Positions 8,462 through 31,000 of a stretch of 47,032 nt of DNA are shown in pieces (the first letter of the stretch is position 1; each line of letters starts with the position of its first letter). The DNA is from a virus. The stretch covers positions 1 through 47,032 of IMG/VR virus record IMGVR_UViG_3300008448_000156. One strand, given 5' to 3'. The notes below the pieces were generated by a model. It made no database searches. It was not told the origin of the DNA and saw only the letters and a program-made list of their open reading frames with translations. The translations under genes were made by a program, and so were the position numbers.

Positions 8462-9448
8462 ATGCGAGCCTCACTACTTAAGGACACCATCAAGTCCACA
8501 TTCCCTATCCAACGAACACTCTGTATCGAGGGTAGCCCCGGTGGTGGTAAGACAACCATCGTGCATGAAGTTGCCAAGGAACTTGACATCCCAGTTATCG
8601 AACGACACATGCCAACCATGCTTGTCGAGGACTTCGGTATCTTGTTCCCCAAAGAGGGCAACGGGCTTGAATACAAACTGCCTGACTGGTTTCCAGTTAA
8701 GGGCAAAGCACCTGAGCGTGGCATCCTGTTGTTCGATGACCGCAACCAAGCCAACGCTGACTTGCAGAAAGTCCTAGCCAACATCTGCCAAGCCCGTACT
8801 CTGCACGGCACACCAATGCCTGATGGGTGGCAGGTCATCTCCACTGGCAACCGACAAGCAGACCGAGCAGGTGCTAACCGAGTGCTATCCCACCTTCGCA
8901 ATCGTGAGACTGTGGTCGAGTTGGAAACCCACCTCGATGACTGGACTACATGGGCACTTGACCATGATGTAAAGCCTGAGGTGATTAGCTTCATCCGCTT
9001 CCGCCCTGCATTGCTTCATGACTTCGATGCTCAGCGTGACCAAAACGCTACGCCTCGTTCATGGGTTGAAGGTGTGTCCGACATTCTCGGTGTATGCCCT
9101 GCTGATGCTGAGTTCGAGATGTTCAAGGGTGCAGTGGGTGAAGGTGCGGCGGCTGAGTTCGTAGGCTTTCTGCGTATCTTCCGTAAGCTACCCAACCCTG
9201 ATGCAGTCCTGATGAACCCGACTACTGCTGATGTGCCTGCTGACCCTGCCACCTTGTATGCCCTGAGTGGTGCACTGGCAGAGCGAGCAACTGAAGGCAA
9301 CTTTGAACGAGTGTGTACCTATGCAGAGCGTATGCCTGCTGACTTCAGTGTGCTCACTGTGTCGTATGCCTCTCGTAAGAAACCCGAACTGGCTAACACG
9401 CAAGCGTTTACCAAGTGGGCAATGAAACACCAAGATGTTTTGTTCTGA
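8462..9448 (+). CDS. MoxR/CobS-like AAA+ ATPase
   Basis: A 328-aa AAA+ protein. Walker A is GSPGGGKT at residues 24-31. Walker B is ILLFDD at 88-93, with Asp in place of the usual second Glu. A sensor-1-like VISTGN lies near 122-127, and a C-terminal lid helical region follows. MoxR and CobS ATPases remodel partner complexes, usually with a VWA-domain protein, and that partner is encoded two genes downstream. AAGGA lies 7 nt before the ATG at 8462; an upstream in-frame TTG is rejected. The protein may be annotated elsewhere as a cobaltochelatase CobS-like subunit, but nothing here supports cobalamin synthesis. Confidence 0.85.
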   Translation: MRASLLKDTIKSTFPIQRTLCIEGSPGGGKTTIVHEVAKELDIPVIERHMPTMLVEDFGILFPKEGNGLEYKLPDWFPVKGKAPERGILLFDDRNQANADLQKVLANICQARTLHGTPMPDGWQVISTGNRQADRAGANRVLSHLRNRETVVELETHLDDWTTWALDHDVKPEVISFIRFRPALLHDFDAQRDQNATPRSWVEGVSDILGVCPADAEFEMFKGAVGEGAAAEFVGFLRIFRKLPNPDAVLMNPTTADVPADPATLYALSGALAERATEGNFERVCTYAERMPADFSVLTVSYASRKKPELANTQAFTKWAMKHQDVLF

Positions 9449-9458
9449 TTAACCAACC

Positions 9459-9476
9459 GAGGGGCACATGCCCCTC
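9459..9476 (+). other. Intercistronic hairpin in the AAA+ cassette
   Basis: GAGGGGC (9459-9465) and GCCCCTC (9470-9476) form a perfect 7-bp GC-rich stem with loop ACAT and no U-tract. It lies between the AAA+ gene and the DUF3150-like gene, a position suited to differential mRNA stability. Confidence 0.55.
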
Positions 9477-9498
9477 ACCAACAGAAGGAGTGACGACT

Positions 9499-10347
9499 AT
9501 GAATCTGAATGACAGAGCATTGCTTGTGCAGTTATCCGTATCCCAATGGACTGCCCGCAAGTACGACAAGAAGGCAACCCAAGATGTTGCCAACACCTAC
9601 GGCACATCGACCCAAGCAGGTAGGTTCAACAAGGCATTGCTTCCTGCCAATGACCTGCTTGACCATGTGCACAAGAAAACCACCCACATTCGCAGTAAGT
9701 TCTACGAGAACACATTGCCGTGGGGTATGGAGGGTACGCAGATGCTTCCCTCTGCCAACTACCTTGCCTTCATGACTGACTTCCGTAAGGAGAAAGCTGA
9801 GTGGCAGTACCTTGTAGACCAGTTCATTGCGAACTACGACCAGTTGCGACTGGATGCAAAGCGTTTACTCAACGGACTGTACAACGATGCAGACTACCCC
9901 GATGAGCAGGAGATAGCACGGAAGTTCAAGATGGACATGGCTATCTTCCCAGTGCCATCGACCGACTTCAGGGTAAGCATTGCATCCGATGAGTTGACAC
10001 GCATCCAAGAAGATGTTGAGCGTAGAGTTGCAGAAGCACAGACTGTAGCTATGAAGGAGGTATGGGGTAGGTTGTATGAACGAGTCAAGCATATGGCTGA
10101 GAAGTTAGCTGACCCCAAGGCTATCTTCCGTGACACCCTAGTGGAGAACACCAAGGAACTGTGTGCCCTACTGCCCCGCTTGAACTTCATGGATGACCCT
10201 GACCTAGAAGCACTGCGTGTACAGGTAGAAGGTGCGTTGATTAAACACCCTGATGCCTTACGCAATGACCCCGACCTACGCCGTGACACGGCAGTAGAAG
10301 CCAAGCAAATCATGGACAAGATGTCCGTATTCATGAAAGGAATTTGA
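9499..10347 (+). CDS. DUF3150-like partner of the AAA+ ATPase
   Basis: A 282-aa, largely helical protein. AAGGAG precedes the ATG by 8 nt. The sequence has no catalytic motif. It contains long charged helices (SDELTRIQEDVERRVAEAQ and following), and the opening (ALLVQLSVSQWTARKYD) resembles the DUF3150 group found beside MoxR-like ATPases in phages and mobile elements. That family match is from memory, not a search. It sits between the ATPase and the HExxH-VWA protein, so it probably bridges or is a substrate of the complex. The reading frame extends upstream to 9415, but that region holds the hairpin and no better start. Confidence 0.65.
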   Translation: MNLNDRALLVQLSVSQWTARKYDKKATQDVANTYGTSTQAGRFNKALLPANDLLDHVHKKTTHIRSKFYENTLPWGMEGTQMLPSANYLAFMTDFRKEKAEWQYLVDQFIANYDQLRLDAKRLLNGLYNDADYPDEQEIARKFKMDMAIFPVPSTDFRVSIASDELTRIQEDVERRVAEAQTVAMKEVWGRLYERVKHMAEKLADPKAIFRDTLVENTKELCALLPRLNFMDDPDLEALRVQVEGALIKHPDALRNDPDLRRDTAVEAKQIMDKMSVFMKGI

Positions 10348-10348
10348 T

Positions 10349-11512
10349 ATGACCTCAGTCGTACCCAACCATGCAGACTGCGAACCGATGAGCGATGCAG
10401 ACCTCAAGCGCATTGACCGACTGCTTGCCAAAGCCCGTACCGCATTGGTACTTGAGCATCCCTTCATCGGCAACATCGCATTGAACATGCCGTTCGTAGC
10501 TGACCACAGTATCCGTACTGCCATGACCAATGGCAAGGAGATACGATACAACCCTCGCTTCATGGATAGCTTCGGTGATGAGGAACGCAAGTTCGTAGTA
10601 GCACACGAGTGCTTTCACCCTATGCTTGAACACAACTTCCGTAGAGGTGAACGACAACACAAGCGGTGGAACAAGGCAGGTGACTATGTGATTAACCAAC
10701 TGCTGACCGATGAGAACATTGGCAAGATGCCATCCTTCGGACTGCTTAACCCACAACTGTACAAGGCAGGTGGTGGTAGCACCGATGGTATCTACAACTT
10801 GTTGCCCGATGAACCCGATGACGGCTCAGGTGGTGATGGTACTGAAGCAATGGATGACTGTGCAGATGGTGGCGGTAGCCCTGCCGAACAAGCACAACAA
10901 CAAGCCGAGTGGAAAGTACGAGTAGCACAAGCGGCACAAGCCGCTAAGATGATGGGCAAGATGAGTGCAGGACTTGAACGCTTAGTCAGTGAGGTACTTG
11001 CACCCAAGGTAGACTGGCGAGATGTGCTTCGCAAGTTCGTTGAGAAGTGCAAGAGTGACCAACGCTCATTCGCTAGACCGAACCGCAGGTTCTTGTCACA
11101 AGGACTGTACTTGCCCAGTGCAAGTGGTGAATCACTCGGTGAGATAGCCATTGCAGTTGACTGCTCAGGTTCGATTGACGATAGAGTTCTTGCCCAGTTT
11201 GCAGGTGAGATTAACGCAATCAAAGAAGATGGCAACCCATCATGTATCCATGTGGTGTACTTCGATAGCCGTGTATCACACTACGAGAAGTATGAGCGTG
11301 ACGATACGCTAGACATCAAAGCACACGGCGGTGGAGGTACTGCCTTCAGCCCAGTGTTCGAGTACTTCAACGAGCATGACATTGAACCTATCGCATGTAT
11401 CTTCCTGACTGACTTGTGTTGCGATGACTTCGGTGATGTACCTCAGTACCCAGTACTGTGGGTGTCAACAGATGAGGGCACTGCACCCTTCGGTGAAGTA
11501 GTACTGATGTAA
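10349..11512 (+). CDS. HExxH metallopeptidase-like and VWA-domain protein
   Basis: A 387-aa protein with two modules. The N-terminal domain has HECFH at residues 86-90, a zincin HExxH motif, as in the putative metallopeptidase domain paired with DUF2201/VWA-like proteins. A Gly/Asp/Gln-rich linker follows (about 150-195). The C-terminal VWA domain has a MIDAS motif DCSGS at 271-275 and a GGGGTAF segment, so Mg2+-dependent ligand binding is likely. Together with the AAA+ ATPase it resembles MoxR-VWA and CobS-CobT chaperone pairs. AAGGA lies 7 nt before the ATG, which follows the previous stop by one base. The biological target is unknown. Confidence 0.85.
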   Translation: MTSVVPNHADCEPMSDADLKRIDRLLAKARTALVLEHPFIGNIALNMPFVADHSIRTAMTNGKEIRYNPRFMDSFGDEERKFVVAHECFHPMLEHNFRRGERQHKRWNKAGDYVINQLLTDENIGKMPSFGLLNPQLYKAGGGSTDGIYNLLPDEPDDGSGGDGTEAMDDCADGGGSPAEQAQQQAEWKVRVAQAAQAAKMMGKMSAGLERLVSEVLAPKVDWRDVLRKFVEKCKSDQRSFARPNRRFLSQGLYLPSASGESLGEIAIAVDCSGSIDDRVLAQFAGEINAIKEDGNPSCIHVVYFDSRVSHYEKYERDDTLDIKAHGGGGTAFSPVFEYFNEHDIEPIACIFLTDLCCDDFGDVPQYPVLWVSTDEGTAPFGEVVLM

Positions 11513-11522
11513 GGAGAGCAAG

Positions 11523-11726
11523 ATGATTACATATGTAGAACTCATGGTGCTTGCTGTATATGCGGCAATGGCAGGGTACATCATGTACCTGCAACACCAA
11601 CTCAAGAAGGCTAAACACGCATGTGAAATGCTTGCAATGGTAGTGCGTGACATGGTGAATGGTGATGTTGAAATCGAAAGGACAGACGATGGAATCCACA
11701 TTAAACATAACGGAAGCAACGCTTGA
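11523..11726 (+). CDS. Small single-span membrane protein
   Basis: A 67-aa protein with an N-terminal hydrophobic helix (about residues 3-23), then a basic helix (HQLKKAKHAC) and an acidic C-terminal part ending in a His-containing tail. AAGGAG lies 6 nt upstream. The 3' end overlaps the next gene by 38 nt. Likely an inner-membrane anchor with a cytoplasmic tail. Function unknown. Confidence 0.7.
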   Translation: MITYVELMVLAVYAAMAGYIMYLQHQLKKAKHACEMLAMVVRDMVNGDVEIERTDDGIHIKHNGSNA

Positions 11727-12279
11727 TAAGTACCGCCATATCAATGTAGACCATATTGATTGGTGGGATAGCACCGAGGAGTGCTACAAGGAGGACATGA
11801 AGGAACAGGGTATCTATGTAAGCGACATGTACTTCAGTGGTTTCTGTTCTCAAGGTGATGGTGCTTGCTTCAGTGGGCATCTTGATGATGTACCTTTGTT
11901 CATTGAAAAGAACTTCAAGCCTGATGACTACCCAATGATACGCAAGTTGTTGGATAGTGGTGGCTCACTGAAGTTCAGCGTAGAGCATAGCGGGCACTAC
12001 TACCATGAGAACTGCACTCGGTTTTATATCGAGGCTGACCGACTAGAGTATTGCGTAAATATGCCGACAGAGTTTCATGAACAGATAGTAGAACAGTGGG
12101 ATAAAGAATTGGATAACGAGATTGTAGATTTTGAGAAGCAAAGCATAGAGATATTCAAGAACCACATGCGAGAGTTGTATCGCAAGTTGGAGCAAGAGTA
12201 TGACTACTTAACAACTGATGAGGCGGTGAGGGAAACCATTGTCGCCAATGACTTACAGGAGGAAAGCGATGACGATTGA
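11689..12279 (+). CDS. Conserved-type phage protein with FSGF-SQGDGA signature
   Basis: A 196-aa soluble protein of unknown function. The ATG at 11689 is chosen over an in-frame start at 11659 because AAGGA lies 6 nt before it. The segment DMYFSGFCSQGDGACFSG (about residues 47-64) resembles a signature I recall from many uncharacterised phage proteins. It is followed by a beta-rich part with SVEHSGHYYHENC and an acidic helical C-terminus ending in EESDDD. The acidity and compact size would suit a protein-binding inhibitor, but that is speculation. Confidence 0.75.
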   Translation: MESTLNITEATLDKYRHINVDHIDWWDSTEECYKEDMKEQGIYVSDMYFSGFCSQGDGACFSGHLDDVPLFIEKNFKPDDYPMIRKLLDSGGSLKFSVEHSGHYYHENCTRFYIEADRLEYCVNMPTEFHEQIVEQWDKELDNEIVDFEKQSIEIFKNHMRELYRKLEQEYDYLTTDEAVRETIVANDLQEESDDD

Positions 12280-12433
12280 TGAACAACAAAGAGTAGTACT
12301 AGCAATCAACAACTTGTTGTACTTGGTTGAGGTGTTCTATCCCGACCCAGTATATGCAGAGCAGTACCATGTTGATGAAGTGGTAGAGCAAGGGCGCAAA
12401 GCCTTAGAGATATTAACCAAACAAGGAGAGTGA
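12269..12433 (+). CDS. Small helical protein (54 aa)
   Basis: An acidic 54-aa protein starting MTIDEQQRVVLAINNLLYLV, with no recognised domain. AGGAGG sits 6 nt upstream of the ATG at 12269, so earlier in-frame starts are rejected. It overlaps the preceding gene by 11 nt and is followed one base later by the next gene. Probably two helices; function unknown. Confidence 0.65.
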   Translation: MTIDEQQRVVLAINNLLYLVEVFYPDPVYAEQYHVDEVVEQGRKALEILTKQGE

Positions 12434-12434
12434 C

Positions 12435-13067
12435 ATGGCAACAGTACGATTTTCAGATGAGTTGAAGGGTGCAATCATTAAGAACGCAGAAGCTATCTTC
12501 AAGAAACAGATTGACGATGCGCTATCTTCATACCCCAAAGACTGGGCAGACCGAGTGTATGAGCGAGCCTTTGCACCATACATCCCAAGCATGAACGCAT
12601 TACCCTCATGCTTCTTCACCACAGTAGGTACTCTTAACATTGCCAAGATTGGTGACATGCGAGTGGGTGTAGCCTGCGAACTTACCAACAAGCGAGCATA
12701 CCCCCATGCCCTGCCAAACACTGATGACTTCCCAGTATCTAAGGCATCGTATGGTGATACCGAGTTAGCACTCAAAGATATTGCTATGTTCGAGGACATC
12801 AAGGTAGAAGCTATTGCCTATATGGAACGAGTAAGTACTGCACGACAACGCAAGGATGTATTCGTTGAACAGGTCAAGAAGATTATCAATGCACATGCAA
12901 CCCTTGCACCTGCCCTCAAGATGTGGCAACCACTGTGGGACTTAGTGCCTGAGGAATACAAGGAACGCCACCGCAAGGTAGTAGAGCGTACCAAGAACGA
13001 GGTGACTGTGGATGTAGACCTTGGGTCATTGACCGCCGCAGTAGTAGCACACAAACTAACACGATAA
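12435..13067 (+). CDS. Hypothetical early protein, Nmad5-like pattern
   Basis: A 210-aa protein with AAGGAG 6 nt before the ATG. The opening (VRFSDELKGAIIKNAEAIF), then a WADRVYERAF helix and a long C-terminal helical region with ERVSTARQRKDVF, recall phage proteins labelled as nucleotide-modification-associated domain 5. I cannot confirm that match without a profile search. There is no obvious catalytic motif and no membrane span. It lies in a run of uncharacterised early genes. Confidence 0.65.
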   Translation: MATVRFSDELKGAIIKNAEAIFKKQIDDALSSYPKDWADRVYERAFAPYIPSMNALPSCFFTTVGTLNIAKIGDMRVGVACELTNKRAYPHALPNTDDFPVSKASYGDTELALKDIAMFEDIKVEAIAYMERVSTARQRKDVFVEQVKKIINAHATLAPALKMWQPLWDLVPEEYKERHRKVVERTKNEVTVDVDLGSLTAAVVAHKLTR

Positions 13068-13076
13068 GGAATAGAT

Positions 13077-13901
13077 ATGCGTACAGATAAACTCTCATAC
13101 GAACAAGTTGCAGAATGGTATACCAAGGCAAGGAATCCCGAAGCGGGTAGACCAGTGCAGTCATGGGCACGGATGTTCAAGGTAGGTGACAACTACGAAC
13201 TGCGGTTCGGTACTTCCGTGGTCGGTGTGTTTACACCTGACAACAAGTTTACATTTAAGATGACTGCGCAAGAAGCACGGCGCAACAGTATCACTCTGAG
13301 CCAAGCACTACAACGAGCCATTCCATTTGTATGGGTGCGTAAGAGTACTGGTAGGTATGTAGTCAAGCCTACCCCACAGTACGAGAAGTTCAAGGAGAGT
13401 AACCCTGATAACTATGGTGCGTGGAATTACTTTACCAAGGTAGAAGGCTATGAACTATTCGACGGCTTATGCTTTGACCTCAATACCTATGAGCCTATCA
13501 ATGCCAAGCCCTCACTCAAAGACACCGAGGTAGTACAGGACAACAAGTTGGAGTGGCTTCGTGCTCTGCGTAAGTTCAAACATGCAGTCAAAGTTCGTGC
13601 TCGTATGGGTGTATTGGAATCCTTGATACAACAAGTTGATAAGGAACGAGTAGGTGTATCCCGATATGATTGGGAACAACCCGACTGGAACAGTGAATCA
13701 TGGCAGGATATGCTATACACTGCACTCAAAACAGGTGAGTGCCCAACAGAACTACTCAAAGGTATTATCAAATCGGTAAGCCGTGGCTATTATCAAACCA
13801 AGATAACAGTCGATGAGGTAGTATCAGAGGTCGATAAGATATGTGGTACATATAGTCTTGACCTGCGTAGAAAATTCGGTGTGTTCAAAGAGTCAACCTA
13901 A
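13077..13901 (+). CDS. Hypothetical early protein (274 aa)
   Basis: A soluble, basic protein of 274 residues with no domain I recognise. The N-terminal half is beta-rich and aromatic (YELRFGTSVVGVFTPDNKF), and the C-terminal half is helical with many charged residues. AAGGA lies 7 nt upstream of the ATG. The neighbours are small early genes. It may bind nucleic acid given its basic helices, but no motif proves this. Confidence 0.7.
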   Translation: MRTDKLSYEQVAEWYTKARNPEAGRPVQSWARMFKVGDNYELRFGTSVVGVFTPDNKFTFKMTAQEARRNSITLSQALQRAIPFVWVRKSTGRYVVKPTPQYEKFKESNPDNYGAWNYFTKVEGYELFDGLCFDLNTYEPINAKPSLKDTEVVQDNKLEWLRALRKFKHAVKVRARMGVLESLIQQVDKERVGVSRYDWEQPDWNSESWQDMLYTALKTGECPTELLKGIIKSVSRGYYQTKITVDEVVSEVDKICGTYSLDLRRKFGVFKEST

Positions 13902-13910
13902 GGAGATGAC

Positions 13911-14111
13911 ATGACTGATACCCTCAAGCGTGATGGTGCGTACTCGCACTTCATTGGTAGCGTAGCTACTGAGAATGATGGTGGGTGGAGTAAAGAAGTA
14001 TGGGATGCCGCATGGCATGAACAACAAAAAGAAATTGACCTTCTACATGCACGGGTCAAACTGCTTGAAGAAGAATGTGCATGGCTTAACTCAGTAGGAA
14101 AAGACAAATGA
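13911..14111 (+). CDS. Small coiled-coil protein (66 aa)
   Basis: A short protein whose C-terminal half is a predicted heptad-like helix (EIDLLHARVKLLEEECAWL). AAGGAG precedes the ATG at 13911. The stop overlaps the next start (ATGA at 14108). It may dimerise. Function unknown. Confidence 0.65.
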   Translation: MTDTLKRDGAYSHFIGSVATENDGGWSKEVWDAAWHEQQKEIDLLHARVKLLEEECAWLNSVGKDK

Positions 14112-14539
14112 AAAGCAAAACACAAAAGGTACGAGAGTACTTCCGCAAGCACCCGCTTGCCACACCAAAAGAAGTTGGTGCGAAGTTCAAGGTAGCTATG
14201 CCTATGGTGTACAAGATTCGCAAGGAAGAACACGCTGACTTCATTGAGCGCAGTAATGCAGGGCATGTGAACCCACAGATTACTGATGCGGTGACACAGT
14301 TCAAGCCAAGCAACAAGGCTGATGACTTACAGATTGGTGGCGACCACTACAAGAACATGGGTGTACAACCTTGGAAGGCTATGGAATCATGGATGACACC
14401 CGAACAATTCGCAGGGTTCTTGCGTGGTAACGCAATCAAATATCTTGCACGATGTGATGCTAAGGGTGGCATTGATGACATCAAGAAAGCCCGACACTAC
14501 ATCGACAAACTTGTTGAGGTAAGAGGTAACGATGATTGA
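14108..14539 (+). CDS. HTH and DUF3310-domain protein
   Basis: A 143-aa protein with two parts. Residues 1-45 look like a winged or simple helix-turn-helix (TPKEVGAKFKVAMPMVYKIR). Residues about 76-138 match the DUF3310 pattern: GGDHYKNMGVQPWKAM, then FLRGNAIKYLARCDAKGG and a final helix. DUF3310 proteins are common in phages and are often labelled nucleotide kinase-like, without solid biochemical proof. The start overlaps the previous stop (ATGA) and the end overlaps the next gene. The HTH fusion hints at DNA binding or regulation. Confidence 0.8.
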   Translation: MKSKTQKVREYFRKHPLATPKEVGAKFKVAMPMVYKIRKEEHADFIERSNAGHVNPQITDAVTQFKPSNKADDLQIGGDHYKNMGVQPWKAMESWMTPEQFAGFLRGNAIKYLARCDAKGGIDDIKKARHYIDKLVEVRGNDD

Positions 14540-14642: not shown

Positions 14643-15112
14643 TGCGTAAGCGCAGTAAGTACCGACCAAAGAAAGTGCTAGTTAATCCAGTGGGGTATGT
14701 GCTTGAGGGCATGACCCCAGTGGGTAAGCACGATAGCTTCTTGCTTGACCTAAAGATAAAGAACCATCTCTCGATGTCTAGTCTTACACAGGGCAAGGCT
14801 ACTCGTGAGGACATGGACAAGCTAATCAGTATGTCGAACATCACTGAAGCCTTGTATCGCTTGGGGTTTGGTACTGACTACAAAGATGTATTGCGAGATG
14901 GAAGTACTGCGTTGCTCGACATTGCAAGGAGGGGGGCTGAGACCAACCGCTTTGTCCTATGGGGGGTCGAGATGAAGGCACTCAATACCCTGATGGAATT
15001 GCATGACGCACAGATGGAAGTCATCACCATCAAAGACATGGAGAGGGCAGTTGCCCTTGTAGAAAATGAGCGCAGACAAAAGCGCATGACTTCAATAATA
15101 GAAAGGAAGTGA
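14642..15112 (+). CDS. Hypothetical protein before DNA polymerase
   Basis: A 156-aa basic protein. The N-terminus is very basic (MRKRSKYRPKKV) and the rest helical, with a GVEMKALNTLMELHDAQMEV helix. The start is coupled to the preceding stop (TGATG). It ends two bases before the DNA polymerase gene. A DNA- or polymerase-associated role is suggested only by position and charge. Confidence 0.7.
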   Translation: MRKRSKYRPKKVLVNPVGYVLEGMTPVGKHDSFLLDLKIKNHLSMSSLTQGKATREDMDKLISMSNITEALYRLGFGTDYKDVLRDGSTALLDIARRGAETNRFVLWGVEMKALNTLMELHDAQMEVITIKDMERAVALVENERRQKRMTSIIERK

Positions 15113-15114
15113 CA

Positions 15115-16992
15115 ATGGACATCGTAACCATTGACTTTGAAACCTACTACGACAAGGACTACTCCCTGTCTAAGATGACCACCGAGCAGTATGTTCGTAG
15201 CAATTTGTTTGAGGTCATCGGGGTTGGCATCAAGGTCAACAACTACCCAACCGACTGGTACTCAGGCAGTGACCCTGCCAAGTTCTTGAAGTCGCTTGAC
15301 TATTCAGACAAGGCAATCCTTTGCCACAACACTGCGTTCGATGGGGCTATCTTGTCATGGCACTTTGGAATTAAACCAAAGCTATGGCTCGACACCCTAT
15401 CAATGGCAAGACCACTCCACCAAATGACTGTGGGGGGTTCGCTCAAAGCACTGGCTACTTACTATGGGTTAGGGCAGAAGGGCGAGGAAGTTCTTAACGC
15501 ATTAGGTAAAAGAAAATCTGCGTTCACACCTGACGAGATGGCTAGGTATGGTGAGTACTGCAAGAACGATGTGGAGTTGACCTATCAGTTGTTCAAGAAA
15601 CTGAGCAAGGGTTTCCCCACCAGTGAGTTGATGGTCATTGACCAAACCATACGCATGTACACCGAGCCTACGATTGAACTCGACAGGCAACTCTTAGAGC
15701 AACATCTTGAGGAAGTCAAAGCAAGGAAGCGCACCCTCATCACTGACATGGGACTCACTGGTATCAGTGACGAAGCAATCACCAAGACATTGATGAGTAA
15801 CCAAATCTTTGCGAAGTACCTCGTCAACCTTGGGGTCGAGCCACCAACCAAGGTGAGCGCACGCACAGGCAAGGAAACATTTGCGTTTGGCAAGACCGAC
15901 AAAGCGTTCACCGACCTGCTCGAACATCCTAATGAGAAGGTTCAGGTTGCGGTCGCCGCAAGGCTCGGCGTGAAGTCCACCCTAGAAGAAACTCGCACCG
16001 AGAATTTGATTGGTGTGTCCGAGCGCGGTCGCCTGCCAATCATGCTCAACTATTATGGTGCACACACAGGCAGGTTCTCAGGCGGTGACAAGCTGAACTT
16101 GCAGAATCTACCCGCTCGTGGGAACAACACAATCCGACGGGCATTGCGAGCACCCAACGGACAAGTTCTTGTGGCATGTGATTCGTCACAGATTGAGGCC
16201 CGCATGGTAGCTTGGGTAGCAGAGCAACATGATTTGGTCGGTGCGTTTGCCGAAGGTCGTGATGTATATAGTGAGTTCGCATCCGAAGTCTATGGTCGCA
16301 AGGTCACGAAGGCTGACAAGATTGAACGATTTGTTGGCAAGACCTGCATCTTGGGACTGGGCTACGGCATGGGTGCTGAGAAGTTCAGACGCACCCTTGA
16401 GATTGGGCAAGGCGGTATCAGTGTGAAGATTGACCTTGCCGAAGCAGAGCGTATCGTTCGCTTGTACCGACAGAAGAACCACAAGATTGTTGCCCTATGG
16501 CAGAAGTGTGGAAGCGCACTGGGTGGCATCGTGTCACGACAGACAGGTTCAATCGCAAAGATGTTGACGTATGACGAGCAAGGCATACGGCTGCCGAATG
16601 GTTTGTACATTCGATACCCTGCACTCCGTGCCAACGGAAGCAACTACGAGTACATCGGTGACGCACGAACATATCGTAAGGCGGTGACTGACAGGGTGAT
16701 GACTGGGCAGGTGTCCGACATCTCGTGGACAAAAATCTATGGGGGTAAGGTCACAGAGAACATCATCCAAGCGATGGCTCGTATCGTGGTGTCCGAACAG
16801 ATGACTGCCATCGGTCGTCATTACCATGTGGCTTTCCAAGTGCATGACGAAATTATCATCACAGCCCCGGCGACACATGCGACAGAGGCAGAGCAACATC
16901 TTGTCACGATAATGTCCACCGCACCTAGCTGGTGTGCCGACTTACCAGTGGCTTGTGAAGCAGGTCACGCAGAGAACTACGGAGATACCTGA
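15115..16992 (+). CDS. polA: Family A DNA polymerase with 3'-5' exonuclease
   Basis: A 625-aa replicative polymerase that lacks the 5'-3' exonuclease domain, as in other phage family A enzymes. The exonuclease has DFE (D7, E9), a CHNTAFD segment (D76) and a YCKND segment (D152). The polymerase domain has motif A ACDSSQIEAR (D356), motif B around KIERFVGKTCILGLGYG, and motif C VHDE (H577-D578-E579). ATG at 15115 with AAGGA 7 nt upstream is preferred over GTG at 15109. It would extend primers made by the primase-helicase at 22146. The exonuclease residues look intact, so proofreading is expected. Confidence 0.95.
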   Translation: MDIVTIDFETYYDKDYSLSKMTTEQYVRSNLFEVIGVGIKVNNYPTDWYSGSDPAKFLKSLDYSDKAILCHNTAFDGAILSWHFGIKPKLWLDTLSMARPLHQMTVGGSLKALATYYGLGQKGEEVLNALGKRKSAFTPDEMARYGEYCKNDVELTYQLFKKLSKGFPTSELMVIDQTIRMYTEPTIELDRQLLEQHLEEVKARKRTLITDMGLTGISDEAITKTLMSNQIFAKYLVNLGVEPPTKVSARTGKETFAFGKTDKAFTDLLEHPNEKVQVAVAARLGVKSTLEETRTENLIGVSERGRLPIMLNYYGAHTGRFSGGDKLNLQNLPARGNNTIRRALRAPNGQVLVACDSSQIEARMVAWVAEQHDLVGAFAEGRDVYSEFASEVYGRKVTKADKIERFVGKTCILGLGYGMGAEKFRRTLEIGQGGISVKIDLAEAERIVRLYRQKNHKIVALWQKCGSALGGIVSRQTGSIAKMLTYDEQGIRLPNGLYIRYPALRANGSNYEYIGDARTYRKAVTDRVMTGQVSDISWTKIYGGKVTENIIQAMARIVVSEQMTAIGRHYHVAFQVHDEIIITAPATHATEAEQHLVTIMSTAPSWCADLPVACEAGHAENYGDT

Positions 16993-18141: not shown

Positions 18142-18450
18142 ATGAGCGCAATGACACCCGAAGGCAAGATAAAACGTAAGGTTGTCGAGGTACTGAAGAC
18201 ACACAATGTGTGGTACTTCTTCCCTGCCAACAATGGATTCGGTAAGGCAGGTATCCCCGACATCATTGCGATTGTCAAAGGTAAGTTCGTAGGGATTGAA
18301 GTCAAAGCTGATAGGACAAAGAAGCCTACGGCATTGCAGGTGCAGTGTGGTGAACAGATACAAAGTGCAGGTGGTTGGTGGTTCTTAGTCTATGACCAAG
18401 ACACCATCGCCTCATTAGAACAAGCGATAGAAGAAAAACTTTACAGGTGA
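18142..18450 (+). CDS. VRR-NUC domain nuclease
   Basis: A 102-aa stand-alone VRR-NUC protein of the PD-(D/E)XK superfamily. The core is GIPDII (D40), GIEVK (E53, K55) and a KPTALQ helix (Q66), all as expected. Phage VRR-NUC proteins are predicted to act as structure-specific, often Holliday-junction, nucleases. AAGGA lies 7 nt before the ATG. The gene ends 4 bp before the helicase gene, so the two may work on the same branched substrates. Confidence 0.9.
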   Translation: MSAMTPEGKIKRKVVEVLKTHNVWYFFPANNGFGKAGIPDIIAIVKGKFVGIEVKADRTKKPTALQVQCGEQIQSAGGWWFLVYDQDTIASLEQAIEEKLYR

Positions 18451-20012: not shown

Positions 20013-20420
20013 ATGACTGTAAACGTAGATGATGTAGTAGCGACCTACATGAAGCTGAGGTCGCAGAAAGAATCTATTGAGGCTGAGGTGAAAGACCGTG
20101 TGTCTACCATCAAAGCCAAGATGGAGAAGTTGGAAGCATGGATTAAAGAACAAGCTGACGTGCAAGGTGTGACATCGTTCAAGACCAAGCATGGCACTGC
20201 GTTCCTGACAACCACTGACTATGCCAACGTAGCTGACTGGGATGCCGTACTCGATTTCATTCGGACACAAGAAGCGTTCGACATGTTAGAGAAACGCATC
20301 AGCAAGATAGCCGTACGTGGTTACATCGAGGCGAACAAAGCAGTACCGCCCGGGGTTAACTACGGCACGAAACTGGAAATAAATATCCGTAAGCCTGCTA
20401 ACAGAGTCGAAGGAGATTGA
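20013..20420 (+). CDS. Coiled-coil replication-region protein
   Basis: A 135-aa protein with a charged N-terminal coiled coil (residues about 10-50), then a compact part with KTKHGTAFLTTTDY and a final beta segment, PGVNYGTKLEINIRKP. Similar small proteins are frequent near ssDNA-binding and helicase genes in phages, but I know no proven function. It starts 4 bp after the helicase stop and lies one base before the next gene. Confidence 0.7.
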   Translation: MTVNVDDVVATYMKLRSQKESIEAEVKDRVSTIKAKMEKLEAWIKEQADVQGVTSFKTKHGTAFLTTTDYANVADWDAVLDFIRTQEAFDMLEKRISKIAVRGYIEANKAVPPGVNYGTKLEINIRKPANRVEGD

Positions 20421-22145: not shown

Positions 22146-25010
22146 ATGGACACGCTGAGTTTTTTTCAGCGAGTACTACCAAGTGAAGGCTTGTATTGCA
22201 TAGCTAGTTTTGAGGGGGACAATCCTGCACCAAGACATGGCTACTTTGATTCGGTAGAAAAACTCGCTCAGGTTGCACAGGCTCTCAATGACAGAGGGCA
22301 GAACACATACTACGCAATCTCCACATTCACGGAGAAGCGTAGAAAGCAGGAGTTCGTTGAGCGCACGAAGGTGCTTGCTATTGACGTTGACTGCGGGATA
22401 GGTAAGAACGGCAAAGCCAAACCGTTCATTGATGCGAAGGAGGGAGCGAAAGCTCTCGTGACTTTCGTTCAAGCAGTTGGGCTACCGATGCCGATGATTG
22501 TTTCGTCAGGCAACGGGCTACATGTTTACTGGATACTGGCTGATGCGATTGCGCCTGCACAGTGGAAGCCGCTTGCCAACGCTTTGAAAGAAGCATGTGT
22601 GGCTAATGGGTTCACGCCTGACATTGGTGTGACTGGTGATAGCGCACGTATTCTGAGACCGATTGGGTGTGTGAATCCCAAGGGTGGGCGTACCGCTACG
22701 TTGGTACGTGATGCGCAGGATGTGACCTATGCACAACTGTGGTCGGTGCTTGAGAAGTTTGCAGGTAGCTCATCCTATGAGCCACCCGTAGGACAGACAC
22801 GCACCAACTCGTTGCTAGATAACCTAGCAGTCAAGCATGAATACCAACCTGCCATTGCAGACAAGGTGGTCGCAGGTTGCCAACAGATTAAATGGGCAGT
22901 AGAAAATCAGAACGATGTGCTTGAGCCTATGTGGTGGAAGGTCATGGGAGTCGCCGCTTTCTGTGCTGACCCCGAAGCTACCGCCGTTAAGTGGAGTGAG
23001 CAGTACTCAGGATTCAACGAACAAGAAGTTGTATCGAAGGTCATCAACTGGAAGAACGGTGCGACAGGCCCGACAACCTGCGAGAAGTTTAGTATTGAAC
23101 GCCCTGACGGATGTAAGGGTTGTAAGTTCAAGGACAAGATTGGTAGTCCTGCAAGACTGGGCACACAGTTAGCAGAGGTGAAATCTATGGCGGCATTGGT
23201 TGACCCGATTGCCGCAGTTGTACCCGTACCCAAACCATTCAAGCGAACCACAGATGGTATGAAGATGGTGGTTGAGGAGACGGACATTGACGTATGCAAG
23301 TTCGACTTGTACCCAGTGGGGTACGGCAGAGACGAGGGACTTGGGTACGAGGTAGTACGGTTCATGTGGAATCGACCGCACGTTGGTTGGACTGAACTGG
23401 CACTACGGCAGGCGAACTTGGCACAGGGTAGTCGTGACTTCTCTACCGCTATTGCAGACCAAGGCATCCTTCTCTACAACAAGTCACAGACGGAAAATTT
23501 CCAAATGCTTCTACGTTCATACATGGAGGAATTGAAGCAACGCCGAGGACTCACAAACCTGTATTCATCAATGGGATGGAAGTCAGAGTACAACGAGTTT
23601 GTGGTTGGCAACACGCTTCTGCGCCGTGACTCCAGCGGTACTATCAATACAGAGACCATCAACCTTGCTCAAGGTATCGGCAGGATTTCTGAGGACATGT
23701 ACGGCACGAAGGGTTCATTGCAAGAGTGGACTAACTTCACCCGCATCCTTGAGACTGCTGATTTGAAACTCCACAAGTTCCTGATTGGCTTCTCGTTTGC
23801 AACACCATTGCTCAAGGTCAGTGGCTTGAAGGGTTTGATTCTGTCCTTGTACGGCAAGACTGGTGGCGGTAAGACGCTCGGTCAGTACATGATGCAGTCA
23901 GTGTGGGGCAACCCCGACCAACTCCACTTCGGTGGTAAGTTCACACAGAACAGTTTGTTCTCACGCTTGTCCCTGCATGGCAACTTACCCATGACGGTGG
24001 ATGAACTGACGATGCTTGACCGTGAGGAAGCAGGCGACCTAATCTACTGGACTTCACAGGGTAGAGACAAGGCTCGTTTGAACCGCAGTGCAGAGGAACG
24101 TGCAACCAAAGAGTGGGCAACCACCATGACGGTATCGACCAACGAGTCATTGCACAGTATGTTGTACGCAGGTGGTCACGCTACGGATGCCAAGCTCGCT
24201 CGACTGCTTGAGTTCAATGTCCATCCCCATGCACTGTTCACATCGGGTAGCCAAGTGGGTCGTCAGATTCATGCGTTCCTGATGGGCAACTATGGTTTAG
24301 CAGGGCAGGAGTTCATTCGGCGGCTGATGCCACTGGGTGTAGAAGGTATCAAGGCTATGCTCGACCATGCCATCAATGAGTTTCCTAAGAAGTATGGTGT
24401 GAACTTCAGCGGTGACGAACGCTTTTGGGAAATCGGTGTGGTGCTTGCTGACTTGGGCAACCGCCTTGCCAAAGAGTATGGGCTTATCCAGTACGACTAC
24501 GAAGACGCAACTGAGTGGGCACTGGGTGAACTGAAATCCATGAAGGTGTCTGCCGCTTCCAATCGTATGGATGCGTTCGATGCACTGGGTGAATTCATCA
24601 ACGAACATATGGATGCGACCTTGACGGTCATGCACACCCCCGGTCAGAAGCCGATGCGGGATAACAACCGACCATATATTGCTGACATCATGGTGCGTTA
24701 CGACCTGTACCGCAAGACCTACGATGGCAAGTTCGAGAGCGGCACTGTCCTCATCGAGCGAACCAAGTTGCGTAGGTGGCTCAGCAATCGTGGCTATGAC
24801 TACAAGGCATTTGTCCAAGAGTTCGAGGTCGAGGGTATCGTTGCTACACCCAAGTCACAGAAGGCGTACTTCGGTAAAGATGTTGGTATCAAGATTCCAC
24901 AATGTTATGTGGTCGGTATCAACCTCAATCACCCACGCTTAATGGGAATCTTGGATGACGCCGACCACTCCGTGGCTGACTTAACTCAAGGACAACTCAA
25001 GGTTGTTTAG
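22146..25010 (+). CDS. AEP-type primase fused to DUF927 helicase
   Basis: A 954-aa replication protein. The N-terminal primase domain of the archaeo-eukaryotic type has IDVD (D80, D82), SSGNGLHVYW (H126) and a downstream Arg-rich RILRPIG segment with NPKGG. A short Cys-containing region (about residues 313-327, CEKF to CKGCKF) links to the C-terminal part. There a DUF927-like helicase has GKTGGGKT at 570-577 and a DELT Walker B further on. It would unwind DNA and lay primers for the family A polymerase. GGGGA lies just before the ATG. Its stop codon interlocks with that of the giant late gene on the other strand. Confidence 0.85.
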   Translation: MDTLSFFQRVLPSEGLYCIASFEGDNPAPRHGYFDSVEKLAQVAQALNDRGQNTYYAISTFTEKRRKQEFVERTKVLAIDVDCGIGKNGKAKPFIDAKEGAKALVTFVQAVGLPMPMIVSSGNGLHVYWILADAIAPAQWKPLANALKEACVANGFTPDIGVTGDSARILRPIGCVNPKGGRTATLVRDAQDVTYAQLWSVLEKFAGSSSYEPPVGQTRTNSLLDNLAVKHEYQPAIADKVVAGCQQIKWAVENQNDVLEPMWWKVMGVAAFCADPEATAVKWSEQYSGFNEQEVVSKVINWKNGATGPTTCEKFSIERPDGCKGCKFKDKIGSPARLGTQLAEVKSMAALVDPIAAVVPVPKPFKRTTDGMKMVVEETDIDVCKFDLYPVGYGRDEGLGYEVVRFMWNRPHVGWTELALRQANLAQGSRDFSTAIADQGILLYNKSQTENFQMLLRSYMEELKQRRGLTNLYSSMGWKSEYNEFVVGNTLLRRDSSGTINTETINLAQGIGRISEDMYGTKGSLQEWTNFTRILETADLKLHKFLIGFSFATPLLKVSGLKGLILSLYGKTGGGKTLGQYMMQSVWGNPDQLHFGGKFTQNSLFSRLSLHGNLPMTVDELTMLDREEAGDLIYWTSQGRDKARLNRSAEERATKEWATTMTVSTNESLHSMLYAGGHATDAKLARLLEFNVHPHALFTSGSQVGRQIHAFLMGNYGLAGQEFIRRLMPLGVEGIKAMLDHAINEFPKKYGVNFSGDERFWEIGVVLADLGNRLAKEYGLIQYDYEDATEWALGELKSMKVSAASNRMDAFDALGEFINEHMDATLTVMHTPGQKPMRDNNRPYIADIMVRYDLYRKTYDGKFESGTVLIERTKLRRWLSNRGYDYKAFVQEFEVEGIVATPKSQKAYFGKDVGIKIPQCYVVGINLNHPRLMGILDDADHSVADLTQGQLKVV

Positions 25011-28000
25011 TCGGGGATGCCCGAAAGGGTTTCCTCGTCTACGCCGTAGATGCGTAGCAACTCCTTGGCTTCTGCACGACCACCTTTCGCTGACGACTTG
25101 AGGCTACGCAATGCGAGTGGCTTCTTGGCTTCACGGAAGGCTTGGCTCAAACCTTTCTCGAAGTTGCGAATCTCTAAGCGTGTGCCCTTGGTGGATTCGT
25201 TCCAGTCTTTGATGTACTCTTTGACTTCCTTCTCAGCCTCGGCGTCACCTGACAAACGAGCGGCAACTGCCTGACGAGTAGCCTCAGTCTTAATCATGGA
25301 CATGTAGGCTTGTTCTTGTGAGTCAGCCATCAACCAGTCCATCTGTGCCTGTGCACGAGATGGATACCAACCGAGAGCCTTACCAAGTATTTCCCAAGCA
25401 CTGGCGTTCTGCGCTACAACATATCCCTTGGTGTCCACAATCGCACCAGTGTCGTAGAACTTAAACGCAGTACCCAAGTTCTTGATAGCGGTCGCGGGAC
25501 TGTCGGTCAGCAAAGCACCTAGACCCTTACGCCCTGTGGCTACGGCAGGCAATGTGTTGAACGCATATTCAAACGTACCCACCAAGAAAGATGTTGGTGC
25601 ACCTGCGATGTTAACCACCTCACGCAGAATCTCTTGCTTCGTAGCCGATGGCTTGAGCAGACCAGTTCCGGGGATGATGTCGCCAAGACCCAAGCGGTTC
25701 GAGAATGAAAGACCAGTGAAGTGGTCAAGCAAACCACGCATAACGATTGGGTTAATCTCTGCTGCCAACTCGTCACCGAATACGCTACGGGTCAGACGGG
25801 CAAACTCTTTCTCAATCGAGCCGACCTTCAAGCCGAGGCGTTGTGCGATGCCGTCAACAATGTCCAAGATGTCGTCAGAACCCGGTATGCCACGCACACC
25901 AGACAACAAGAGCAACGACCCGAGCATGATGATGCGACCTTCGTAGTTCATGTTCTTCAACAACTGAACCATCAGGATTGGGTACTGCTTGTACATATAG
26001 ATGAACGACTGCAATCCACCACGGAAGAAAGCAGGGCGGTTGTACTGAGCGTAGTCACCTTGGGTAGCATCAACCGCACGAGAAGCTGCTGCACGGGCAG
26101 CAAGGTCAGCTTGGTTGTGGTCTACGCCGGATGCACGTTGGCGGTCATACTCACCACGATAGGCTGCTAGGAGCGTTGTTCGACGGTTGAACTGCTCGGA
26201 GTAGCTGAACGGGAACATCCACACCTGAATAAATTTCTGTGCGGTTGGGTTACCAGTAATCTTACGACCACGGCTAGTACCAGTCAGAGCGTTGAACTGT
26301 GCCGCATCAAGGCGTTGTTCCTCAGTCATGGTTTGGAGGAAGTTCAGTTCGGCAAAGGTCAAGCCGTCTTTGTTCTTATCCTTACCAGTGTCTTGGAGTT
26401 CCTTAATCTGTGCCTTGATGTAGTCAAGGTTGGAGTAGCGGAAGTTACCTGCCTTACGACCATAGTCAAACAACAGTGTGGCGGCACGACCTGCACCCAA
26501 GCCTAGACCAAAGCCATTCTTAGGATTGAAAGCTGAGAGGTACGCCCATGAGTTGGTCGGCAACGAAAGCATCTGCGTCACACCAGTAGCGATAGAGCCA
26601 CCGAGTTGGGCAAGAGCCGCCCATGTACGAGCAGCAACAGACCACTCGTTGTTTGTCCAAATGTCGTCAGCGTGAACGATGTCACCTGTGGATTCTTTCC
26701 AGTCGAGCAAAGACTTGGCACGTTCTTTGTACCAGTTGCCTCGCTCCACCCGCTTGCCGTCAATGGTTTCAACAGCGTTGTCGTAGTAGAACTTCTCTTG
26801 GAAATACTCACGGGCTGCAATCTCTTTTGCCTCGCCAGTGCTGCCTTCCCACTTGACACGCAGTTCTTCCAAACGAGTTGGGTCGCCTTGCCAGTTGTAT
26901 GGGTTGTCCAGTACTTCGTCATACTGGTGACGGAATTCTTTGTTGGCTGCGGTGTATGCCTGCTGCTCCAGATAAGCCGACGCACTCTTGACAACATCTT
27001 TATCCCAGCCTGCTACACCCGAACGCTTCAGGTTTGCACGAGCACGGGTGTTCTGTGCAGTAATCTTTTGCACCAAGACCTGACGCTGTTCAGGAGTGAT
27101 GTTGATACCCAAGCGGCTGAGCGAGTACATCACCTCGTCATAGTGGAGGATGTCCACAAGGGCGGGAGTCTGCTCGGCAACCGATGCAATGGCTCGCAAC
27201 TTAACTGTCTGCACATTGCCATCCGCGTCACGCATGTCGTGCTCGCCTGCAAAGATGTTGTCCAATTCGTCTTGGAGTTCCTGTGCATCTTTCTGATTGC
27301 CAGCCTTGCCGTAGAACAACGAGTCTTGCTGACCGGGGCGCAGCTTCACAGGAACATCTTGCCCGTTGACAGTCTTGTAGGCTTGGATGCGAACTTGCCA
27401 GTCACCTTCACGGATGAGGGGAACATATGAGCCAGCGATGGTTCGCTTGGCATAGAACTGGTCGTCATTGATAGAGGCGGCAAACATTGCACGTTCTTCA
27501 ATGCGGTGCTCCAGTGCCCAAATAGAACTATCCCGAATGTCGTCAAGGTCAGGGTCTATCTTGGAACGCAACTTCTTACGCATCCCACGCACAATCGTGT
27601 CAACCTCAGCGGCGGTGTAGCCTTCCACCATTTTGGTCAGGTCGCCCAATGCAAGGTCGGTGTAGAACGAGCGGGCAAACTTCATACGCAACCACTCGTC
27701 AGCATCCTCTTGAGCAGCTTCATTCATCTCGAAGCGGTTGTTCTTGTAGCCTGAGTCCTTCAGACGCATACGGTCGTACTGCTCAACCACATCCTCAATG
27801 AACTTGGTTTCCTGTGCGGTCAGCGATTGGTTGAACGCTGCACCGATACCAGTACTGATGGCTCGCTTCTGTTCGTGGATAGCACCGAGGTACTTACCAA
27901 TCAACACGTCAGCGGCAGACTTAGAGATGGCGTCATGGAACTGCAAGTACACCTGATACTCAAGGCTCTTACCTGTATAGGTCACAGTACCGTCGTCGTT

Positions 28001-31000
28001 CTCAATCACAGAACCGTCAACATCTTTGAACCAAGCAGGGGAGTCCACCATACGAGGAGCTTCGTAAGTTTTCTCGTTCATCTGTTTGGTGTAGTACCGC
28101 TTGGTGCTTTCCATGTTGCTGGCGTACTTACTTTCGAGACGCTTGATACGCAACTCGAACTCTAGCTTAGCTTCTTCATTGACAGCCGCAGCCAGTTTCT
28201 TTTGCAGACGGGCAAGTTCTCTAGCTTTACCTGCTTCCATATTGGCGAGTTCTTTGTCCCGCTGCGCACCCAGTTCCGCTTTGTATTCCTCAGTCATTGG
28301 GCGTTCTTCAGTACCCTGCTGGACTTTGAATGTGCTGCGGAATTCTTCAGGGGTCATGCGACCAACCTGCTTCAACTGGTTAAACCCTTCCACGTTGACC
28401 TTGGGCACAGGCTCAAGGTTGTCAGGGTCGTAGAACACGATGTTGTCCATCTGTGCAATCTTGGTATCCGAGACTTGGTTCATCTTGAACAGCGTTGCAT
28501 ACGCCATCAGTTCACCAGCACGGACACTTTGCTCAGGCGTTAAGCCATCACCAAAGCCAAGGAACTTAGCTTCGTGGGCAATCTTGGTCATCTCAGAGTA
28601 CTGAGTCTTGAGTTCAGTCTGACGAGCCGCTTGGTCTTGCAGTAGGGTAAATACCTTGTAGTAACCCTTGGACTTGCGAGCCATGTTGTCTTGCGTTTGG
28701 ATACCGTCAAGAACTTTCTGAACCACGTTACCCACGTTGGCAAGGACACCCTTACCCTGCTTGCGCATCTCGGCAGCTTTCTGTGAAGCACCAACGATGT
28801 CTTGGATAGAACGAGAGATGCCACCATAGATGGCGAAGTCACGGTTCACAAAGTTCTGCGCAAAGTAGGCAGAGCCTTGGGCAGCAGACTGGGCAAAGCG
28901 CAACACCTCAATGTCAGACTGCTCGGTAGCCAGTGCCTCGTTGATTTCCTTGAACAGACCAGAGGTGTTCACTTCGCTACGACCAACGCCTTGACGCACG
29001 TACTTGCGCGATAGGCTGATAAGGTAGCGAGCCGCATCGTCATTGAACGAGAAGCCTAGTTTGTTGAGTTGGTCTTTCAACCAGTTCCAAAAACGCAGGA
29101 CTGTGTTATTGTCGATGGCAGCAGCACGGTCTGCCAACACCTCCTCGACTGCTTCGAGGAATGGGATACCTTTGCCGTTCGCATAGATGTTTGCCTCATG
29201 TGTGAGATGAGGGTCAGCATCGGCAACGAACCGCAGAATCTTGTCGAGTGCTTGGTTGCTGAACAAACCACGGAAACCAACGTGACCAAGAGTCTCGTGG
29301 GCAATGATGAAGCGGGCATGTTCCTCAGAGTGGATGAGGTCTGCAAACAGAACCACGTTGTCACCCCAAGCCATACCTGCGGCGTTAACCGCTTCGATGT
29401 CACCATCCTTACGAGCCTTTGCTGCCGCTTCAAACAGGGCAGGGTTGCTACGCTTCATGTCTTGGATGTTCGAGAACACAGACACCCGTGGCTTACGAGC
29501 GTACTTAGAGATGACACGGGCTGCGAACAAGCGCAGTGGGCCAGCCTTCATAGGATTCAGAGGCTTACCATCCGAACGGAAGGCACGCCAGTCGTCATCA
29601 CTGTTAGGCTTGCGGTCATAGAAAGGGTCGAACTGGAGGTCATCCAGTGTCGTTTGGTTCTCGGTATCTTCCATGTCACGCAACTCTTTGCGTGCGGACT
29701 CATGCTTAGCCACGAAGTCAGACTTGGTAGTCTTCTCCTCAGCCGTAGTGTTCGGGATGAAGTACGATGTGCCAGCAGGCTGGGTCACAAATGGGTTTCC
29801 ATCAGCGTCAAAGAAGTCTTTGATGCGACCACGCTTGCCAACTGCAAAGGTGTCATCGTCAATCTTGGCGTAGTACTTCTTGAGCTTGTCAACCAACTGT
29901 TGGCGGTTAGGCCACTGTGGATTGGAGTCAATGAAGTTGGCAAGGCTTTCCTCAGGAGAGATGTCAGAGTTAGCCCCAATGGTTTCACCAACCACTGCTT
30001 CTTGCGTTGCCTTAGCCCCGGGCATACGCACATTCTTCATGACGTTCACATCGTTGAGCAAGCCAGCATCGGCAAGCAAACCATACAGACGGGAATTTGG
30101 TTTGATGGCGTCTGCGTCCAACGCAACTTCACGCAAAGCGGCTACATAGTCACCCTTCGGTACACCGCCTTCATCCGTCAAGAACTTTGTGGATGTCTTC
30201 AGTAGGTATGTGCGGTCTTTACCATAGACATAGGCAGACACAATGTCATACAACGCCTCGGCGTAAGCCGCTGCGTTCTTCGTAGTTTCAGCCGTCTCGA
30301 TAGCCATATCGAGTTCTTCGTTAGCCTCTAAGGTTTCTGCCGAGGTTACTGGCGCACCACGTTTGGCAGGCTGACTTTCAACCACAGCACCTTGCTCTGT
30401 CGCAGCCATAAGCTGACCAACCATTGCAGCCATACCACTTGGGCCTTTCTGCAACTTGGCTGCTTTCGGTGCAGCTTCACCCTTCGCCTCAGTTTTCTTC
30501 GGCTCTTTCTTCAGGGTCTTCTTACCACCCTTAGGAGGTGTAGGCTCAGTCGGTTCGGTTGGCTCGGTAGCCGTAGTTACTTCTGCTTGCTTCGCCCCGC
30601 GCTTGAGAGACTTGCCGCTACCGCTTGCTTCAGTGCCGCCGCCTTGCTCTTGGGTCTTGGGCTGTTGCCCAGCTTTCCGCCCGCCTTGTACTCCCGCATT
30701 ATCTTGCTGACGTTTTGGCTGACGACCTTGTTGCTGCTTCCCTTCTTGAGTGGCATCTGGTTCTCCTTGTGCTTCGGGTTGTAAAAAGTCTCCATCATCA
30801 AACTGACCATCGAACACAGTGCCGTCAGCATCCTCAAAGCGACCAGTACCATGTGGCTTGCCGTCCTTGAACTGACCTGTGTATGTGGAAGTGTCAGAGT
30901 AAATCAGAGTACCTTGACCATTTGGCACACCCTTCTTCAACTGACCTGTATATACAGAGCCGTCTTCAAAGGTGATAGTGCCAGTCTTTTCTTTCTTCAG

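Follow-up and report, generated by a model that had tools for sequence, protein, structure and literature searches.

A linked AAA+ ATPase, DUF3150-like, and zincin-VWA gene cassette of phages and plasmids as a candidate protein-remodeling machine

The DNA analyzed here, a 47,032-base IMG/VR viral contig (the window), carries at positions 8462-11512 a cassette of three adjacent genes encoding an AAA+ ATPase, a middle protein related to the DUF3150 family, and a protein that joins a putative zincin metallopeptidase domain to a VWA domain. Comparison of gene order among viruses gives strong evidence that the three genes are a functional unit. We put at about even the chance that they encode one ATP-driven protein-remodeling machine of mobile elements, likely acting on replication/recombination nucleoprotein or on a host factor met there. 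The gene identities, domains, motif conservation, linkage, distribution, and DNA-metabolism neighborhood described below were computed. The cassette and the motifs of its products are as follows.

8462-11512, + strand: three-gene cassette; ATPase, middle gene, and zincin-VWA gene adjacent and all on the same strand
8462..9448, + strand: AAA_5/MoxR-type AAA+ ATPase gene (N4 gp24 homologue, PHROG_1297); ATG at 8462, 328 amino acids
Within the ATPase: Walker A GSPGGGKT (K30), Walker B ILLFDD (D92), sensor 1 GN129-130, R148, and sensor-2-like PR198-199
9499..10347, + strand: distant DUF3150-family middle gene; 282 amino acids, best start ATG at 9499 with an AAGGAG ribosome-binding site upstream
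10349..11512, + strand: zincin-VWA gene (DUF2201_N/DUF2201; N4 gp25 homologue, PHROG_1314); ATG at 10349, 387 amino acids
10604..10618, + strand: HECFH, residues 86-90, the predicted zinc/catalytic motif; H86, E87, and H90 are kept in homologues
10670..10696, + strand: N108-x-A-x-D112-x3-N116, conserved; D112, proposed to be the third metal ligand, disappears along with HExxH in one plasmid trio (L276)
11159..11173, + strand: DCSGS, residues 271-275, of the metal ion-dependent adhesion site (MIDAS), completed by T331 and D355; invariant in complete sequences

The coordinates, adjacency, and shared direction given in an initial annotation of this DNA, together with its GSPGGGKT, HECFH, and DCSGS motifs, were all confirmed on the sequence. 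A single base separates the stop of the middle gene from the zincin-VWA start at 10349. The ATPase matches PHROG_1297 with an E value of 8.5e-70 and the zincin-VWA protein matches PHROG_1314 with an E value of 4.8e-102; with the Pfam E values given below, these place the family and domain matches of both genes beyond chance. A DNA-level search of phage records with the whole cassette gave no match, and a genome scan with one alignment (A2) found no conserved stretch.

In viruses the three genes remain linked while their order is shuffled. Among close relatives of the window, the order ATPase-middle-VWA is constant and was found in 122 of 146 loci, a count in which overlapping loci from one contig recur; the rest are cut by contig ends or partly lacking. 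A more diverse set was made up of 62 viral contigs whose VWA proteins mostly share 30-41% identity with the query (L080). Here all three genes are present in 47 contigs, always on one strand, and 46 of these 47 trios span within 4.5 kb. Three orders are seen: ATPase-VWA-middle (34 trios), middle-ATPase-VWA (12 trios), and ATPase-middle-VWA (1 trio). Among the diverse contigs without the middle gene, ample flanking sequence on both sides is present only in L269 and L270. Retention of the linkage despite this shuffling is what functional linkage predicts. The initial annotation had proposed a mobile unit and had named beforehand, as evidence against it, a failure of the three genes to co-occur in other phages; the trio recurs in these viral contigs and also on plasmids.

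The ATPase is recognizable at several levels. In Pfam, AAA scores above its cut-off (E value of 7.6e-5) and AAA_5 just under (21.4 bits against 22 bits), and the Walker A, Walker B, sensor 1, and arginine residues are conserved among homologues, a combination that assigns the protein by sequence to the MoxR/AAA_5 ATPases. Its nearest solved relatives by sequence are the AAA domains of Midasin/Rea1 (E value of 1.8e-30), and its profile is homologous to those of CbbQ/CobS-type ATPases (E value of 4.4e-11). Relatives were found in 684 phage records. The match in Vibrio phage JSF3 (L160, 2565-4354) is split over two open reading frames (ORFs) and has intron-type homing endonucleases annotated in its vicinity; the gene may be interrupted there.

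The middle protein of the window gave nothing above threshold in Pfam, DUF3150 (PF11348) included. Weak DUF3150 matches were obtained for 8 of 17 and 11 of 19 members of the middle-protein family (best E value of 5.4e-5), and a profile-profile alignment by hhalign of that family with DUF3150 proteins from bacterial genomes has a probability of 96.2 and an E value of 2.6e-9 over 218 columns. The predicted structure, for which, as for the other model, the alignments were drawn from the window and IMG/VR sequences only, has a predicted local distance difference test (pLDDT) score of 87 and is mostly helical with short strands. Among viral folds it matches a DUF3150 protein best (E value of 4.3e-19), and a fold search of the PDB returned no significant solved structure. 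On these sequence and profile comparisons, the middle protein is a distant DUF3150 homologue and, because it scores under the Pfam cut-off, no formal member of the family; it is presumed to be the adaptor or scaffold of the cassette.

The third protein matches DUF2201_N (PF13203, a putative metallopeptidase domain) with an E value of 7.9e-49 and 167.1 bits against a cut-off of 23.2, and in its C-terminal part the VWA-like DUF2201 (PF09967) with an E value of 1.5e-27 and 96.6 bits against a cut-off of 26.4. Relatives were found in 554 phage records. The "HNH endonuclease" label of PHROG_1314 has been copied into many of about 550 such records, that of N4 gp25 included; we rejected this reading for the window protein, in which Pfam shows zincin and VWA domains and no HNH domain, and the label is probably wrong for the phage VWA protein. 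The AlphaFold model has a pLDDT of 89.5 and puts HExxH on one helix and D112 on the next. Its fold matches are VWA domains, the MIDAS domain of MDN1 among them, and, weakly, the zincin selecase. The Pfam, PHROG, and profile evidence thus bears out what had been read from the letters alone: a MoxR/CobS-type ATPase with a VWA partner, a helical DUF3150-like middle protein, and a metallopeptidase-like site fused to VWA.

Conservation at the two sites was counted over 103 non-redundant viral homologues, N4 gp25 among them. H86, E87, and H90 are kept in 102, the exception (PALS_2) being perhaps a start-site or alignment artifact, and N108, A110, D112, and N116 are kept in all 103. The MIDAS residues D271, S273, S275, T331, and D355 are invariant in all complete phage, bacterial, and plasmid copies. 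A conserved HExxH with D112 as candidate third ligand marks the protein as a putative zincin metallopeptidase. D112 aligns near an invariant ED of CobT-like proteins, and in the trio of Paraburkholderia dioscoreae plasmid pIII (L276; 20824-22188) H86, E87, H90, and D112 are all lost while the MIDAS is kept; we take this joint loss to support D112 as a residue of the same site. HHxxH replaces HExxH in four chromosomal ATPase-VWA pairs (L305, L306, L307, and L309). The expectation that HExxH would be conserved therefore holds for phages and fails in one plasmid trio and these four pairs: the protease-like site, as judged from its residues, is strongly retained in phages and dispensable in some relatives. 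Proteolysis by the zincin-VWA protein is predicted, and it would not be essential everywhere.

The cassette extends beyond viruses. The middle protein is encoded on 44 plasmid records, mostly of Burkholderiales, and the trio is syntenic on plasmids of Simplicispira, Paraburkholderia, Cupriavidus, and Rhodovastum (L275-L277 and L279); it also occurs in genomes of Cupriavidus and relatives. Some plasmid trios have PRTRC cassettes and genes for type IV secretion in their vicinity; in two Burkholderiales plasmids (L276 and L277), the neighbor is a PRTRC cassette with ThiF- and ParB-related plasmid genes. A parallel version of the cassette is built on canonical DUF3150 genes, which are present on 1,168 plasmid records, 978 of them conjugative, and which accompany a CbbQ/CobS-type AAA_5 ATPase and/or a CobT-like VWA protein. 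This VWA partner carries HExxH in its N-terminal part, with an ED.R.E motif after it, and a C-terminal MIDAS. On the IncC plasmid pNDM10505, the genes run in the order ATPase, unknown, ssb, bet, exo, DUF3150, VWA; HEAAH and a MIDAS are both present in the VWA product. The IncC set thus shares with the window trio the three-part logic and the HExxH-plus-MIDAS partner but its ATPase and VWA protein belong to other subfamilies. Between the two kinds of VWA protein, the zincin regions can be aligned only marginally (probability of 57, E value of 1e-4), from which a common origin of the phage and CobT-like zincin domains appears likely. The MoxR and VWA genes of pCAR1 are common to R478, Rts1, SXT, and R391 (PMC2642839); the Rts1 deletion paper does not name MoxR/VWA genes.

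The ATPase-VWA pair itself is not new, since homologues have been described in two groups of phages, and the sequence of the plasmid gene cluster was already available. The window pair is clearly homologous to gp24 (AAA+ ATPase) and gp25 (vWFA) of phage N4 (L154), which are likewise adjacent and in the same strand and order, and gp24/gp25 are among the genes common to Schitoviridae (PMC7650795; PMC2784036). The N4-like phages differ from the window in having no detectable DUF3150 gene, and the window contig differs from them in having no match to the virion RNA polymerase (vRNAP). Iyer et al. (2021; PMC7824862) described a MoxR-vWA pair of group 2.2 jumbo phages, with an N-terminal metallopeptidase domain, and proposed a role for it in the assembly and processing of virions; its VWA-protein architecture and pairing are as in the window, but a DUF3150 partner is absent from the description. 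The text of the AR9 transcription paper does not name the ATPase-VWA genes of that phage. The cyanophages MinM2, Pag-Yong1, and Pra-JY27 have all three families in the order of the window (annotated MoxR / DUF3150 / VWA-like in MinM2), but at about 30% identity and with small ORFs between the genes. Among cellular systems, Midasin/Rea1 and RavA-ViaA likewise couple a MoxR/AAA_5 ATPase to a MIDAS/VWA module, but they have cellular functions and neither a zincin domain nor DUF3150. The literature searched, in which subscription papers were thinly covered, held no account that connects the phage trio with the plasmid cassettes, and none of the order-shuffled linkage or of natural loss of the protease site. 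Seen as versions of one cassette, gp24/gp25 of Schitoviridae and the DUF3150/VWA genes of widespread conjugative plasmids come under one testable hypothesis.

The remodeling-machine reading draws on the known activity of MoxR/VWA pairs and is supported by two matches to Midasin: it is the ATPase's nearest relative of solved structure, and its own MIDAS domain turned up in the fold search with the VWA protein. We infer a physical complex, a ring, an adaptor role, proteolysis, and a client. The AAA_5 ATPase would assemble as a ring, on which the zincin-VWA protein would dock as a co-chaperone with its MIDAS holding a client protein, and the DUF3150-like protein, as adaptor, would confer the choice of client or couple ring and VWA. 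ATP hydrolysis would then pull on or dismantle the client complex, with the HExxH site perhaps also cutting the client in most lineages. The likely client would be the element's own replication/recombination nucleoprotein complex, or a host factor encountered there, rather than a component of the virion, as suggested by the plasmid distribution and by the genomic context, which in the window includes two downstream genes outside the proposed machine.

15109..16992, + strand: family A DNA polymerase gene (replication module)
18142..18450, + strand: Hjc-like Holliday-junction resolvase/endonuclease gene

A relative of this polymerase lies downstream of the cassette in 55 of 69 related viral loci, counted where at least 6 kb of downstream sequence was present and with overlapping loci of one contig counted separately. 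A relative of the resolvase is found in 49 of the 62 diverse viral loci. The VWA gene is followed by a helicase and then a DNA polymerase in the Schitoviridae LIT1, SBP1, EcP1, and JSF3, and the virion genes of the window are on the strand opposite to the cassette. The initial annotation had placed the cassette early in infection, for which the nearest studied case offers no support: N4 gp24/gp25 are middle transcripts (PMC4193335). The presence of the trio in many phages and plasmids, usually beside replication or recombination genes, suggests a widespread accessory of mobile DNA. We advance more tentatively the wider proposal that the AAA+/DUF3150/zincin-VWA machine, in two parallel subfamilies, is a DNA-metabolism accessory common to lytic phages and conjugative plasmids, a remodeler-protease working on replication/recombination nucleoprotein or on host factors attacking it; the occasional protease-dead versions would make remodeling its core function.

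Several observations weigh against the replication-linked machine. In Schitoviridae and jumbo phages the ATPase and VWA genes are paired but no middle protein could be detected (iterated hidden Markov model searches found no homologue in N4-like phages, Thermus phage phiFa, or the jumbo phages tested), so an adaptor role is not universal. A replication neighborhood is no proof of function, as phage genes of the early and middle classes are grouped with replication genes in any case, and in roseophage RPP1 a middle-phase structural-gene module lies near the gp24/gp25 homologues (PMC4193335). This last arrangement favors a virion-assembly chaperone with a processing protease that assembles or matures tail or head proteins, which is the published proposal for the jumbo-phage pair, made by analogy with a tail-assembly MoxR-vWA system of an archaeal virus (PMC7824862). 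We consider such a role unlikely. The trio and its parallel version are carried by plasmids encoding conjugation systems, a poor fit, and the link between phage and plasmid cassettes calls that reading into question; with the replication-gene neighbors in phages and the separate strand of the virion genes in the window, this argues against a purely virion-assembly function. A machine for counter-defense or host takeover, extracting and cleaving a host defense or regulatory protein, would fit the distribution nearly as well, as lytic phages and plasmids face identical host barriers, and would make use of the protease site; the gene that comes after the VWA gene in EcP1 is a Lar-like restriction-alleviation gene. 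The sharing of gp24/gp25 across Schitoviridae (PMC7650795) would be unusual for a gene of this kind, however, and PADLOC gave no specific match to a known defense family, which leaves the idea rather improbable. The cassette was also rejected as a known anti-phage defense system, as the PADLOC match was at the P-loop level alone (IetA, mad8, and BrxF) and none was found for the other two proteins.

The remaining alternatives concern the chemistry. Remodeling could be wholly non-proteolytic, with the zincin domain a structural or client-binding module, as the pIII trio, intact with its MIDAS after loss of all four active-site residues, and the HHxxH pairs would allow; retention of H86, E87, H90, and D112 in practically every phage copy and almost every plasmid copy, across separate lineages, makes this doubtful as a general account. 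The CobS/CobT-type assignments of the parallel cassette and a literature proposal of viral cobST (PMC8651126) raise the thought of metal-chelatase-like subunits that boost cobalamin synthesis, which we regard as very improbable: the window VWA protein matches DUF2201 and has no CobT match in Pfam, DUF3150 is no known chelatase subunit, no gene resembling CobN appeared among the ORFs scanned, and HExxH fits peptidase chemistry.

A few other features of the window were noted. Among the virion genes, positions 25007-33346 (- strand) encode a protein of 2779 amino acids that contains a MORN repeat and whose C-terminal part matches an unknown 3431-residue PHROG; as these, and no vRNAP, were what it matched, membership of the window phage in Schitoviridae was rejected. 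Positions 20013-20420 (+ strand), just after an SNF2-type helicase and the Hjc-like resolvase, encode a small protein with weak similarity to Mu Gam-like proteins and Pam3 gp33. In close relatives, too, the VWA gene is followed by the genes that in the window lie between cassette and polymerase (11659-14539, + strand), one of which belongs to PHROG_5162.

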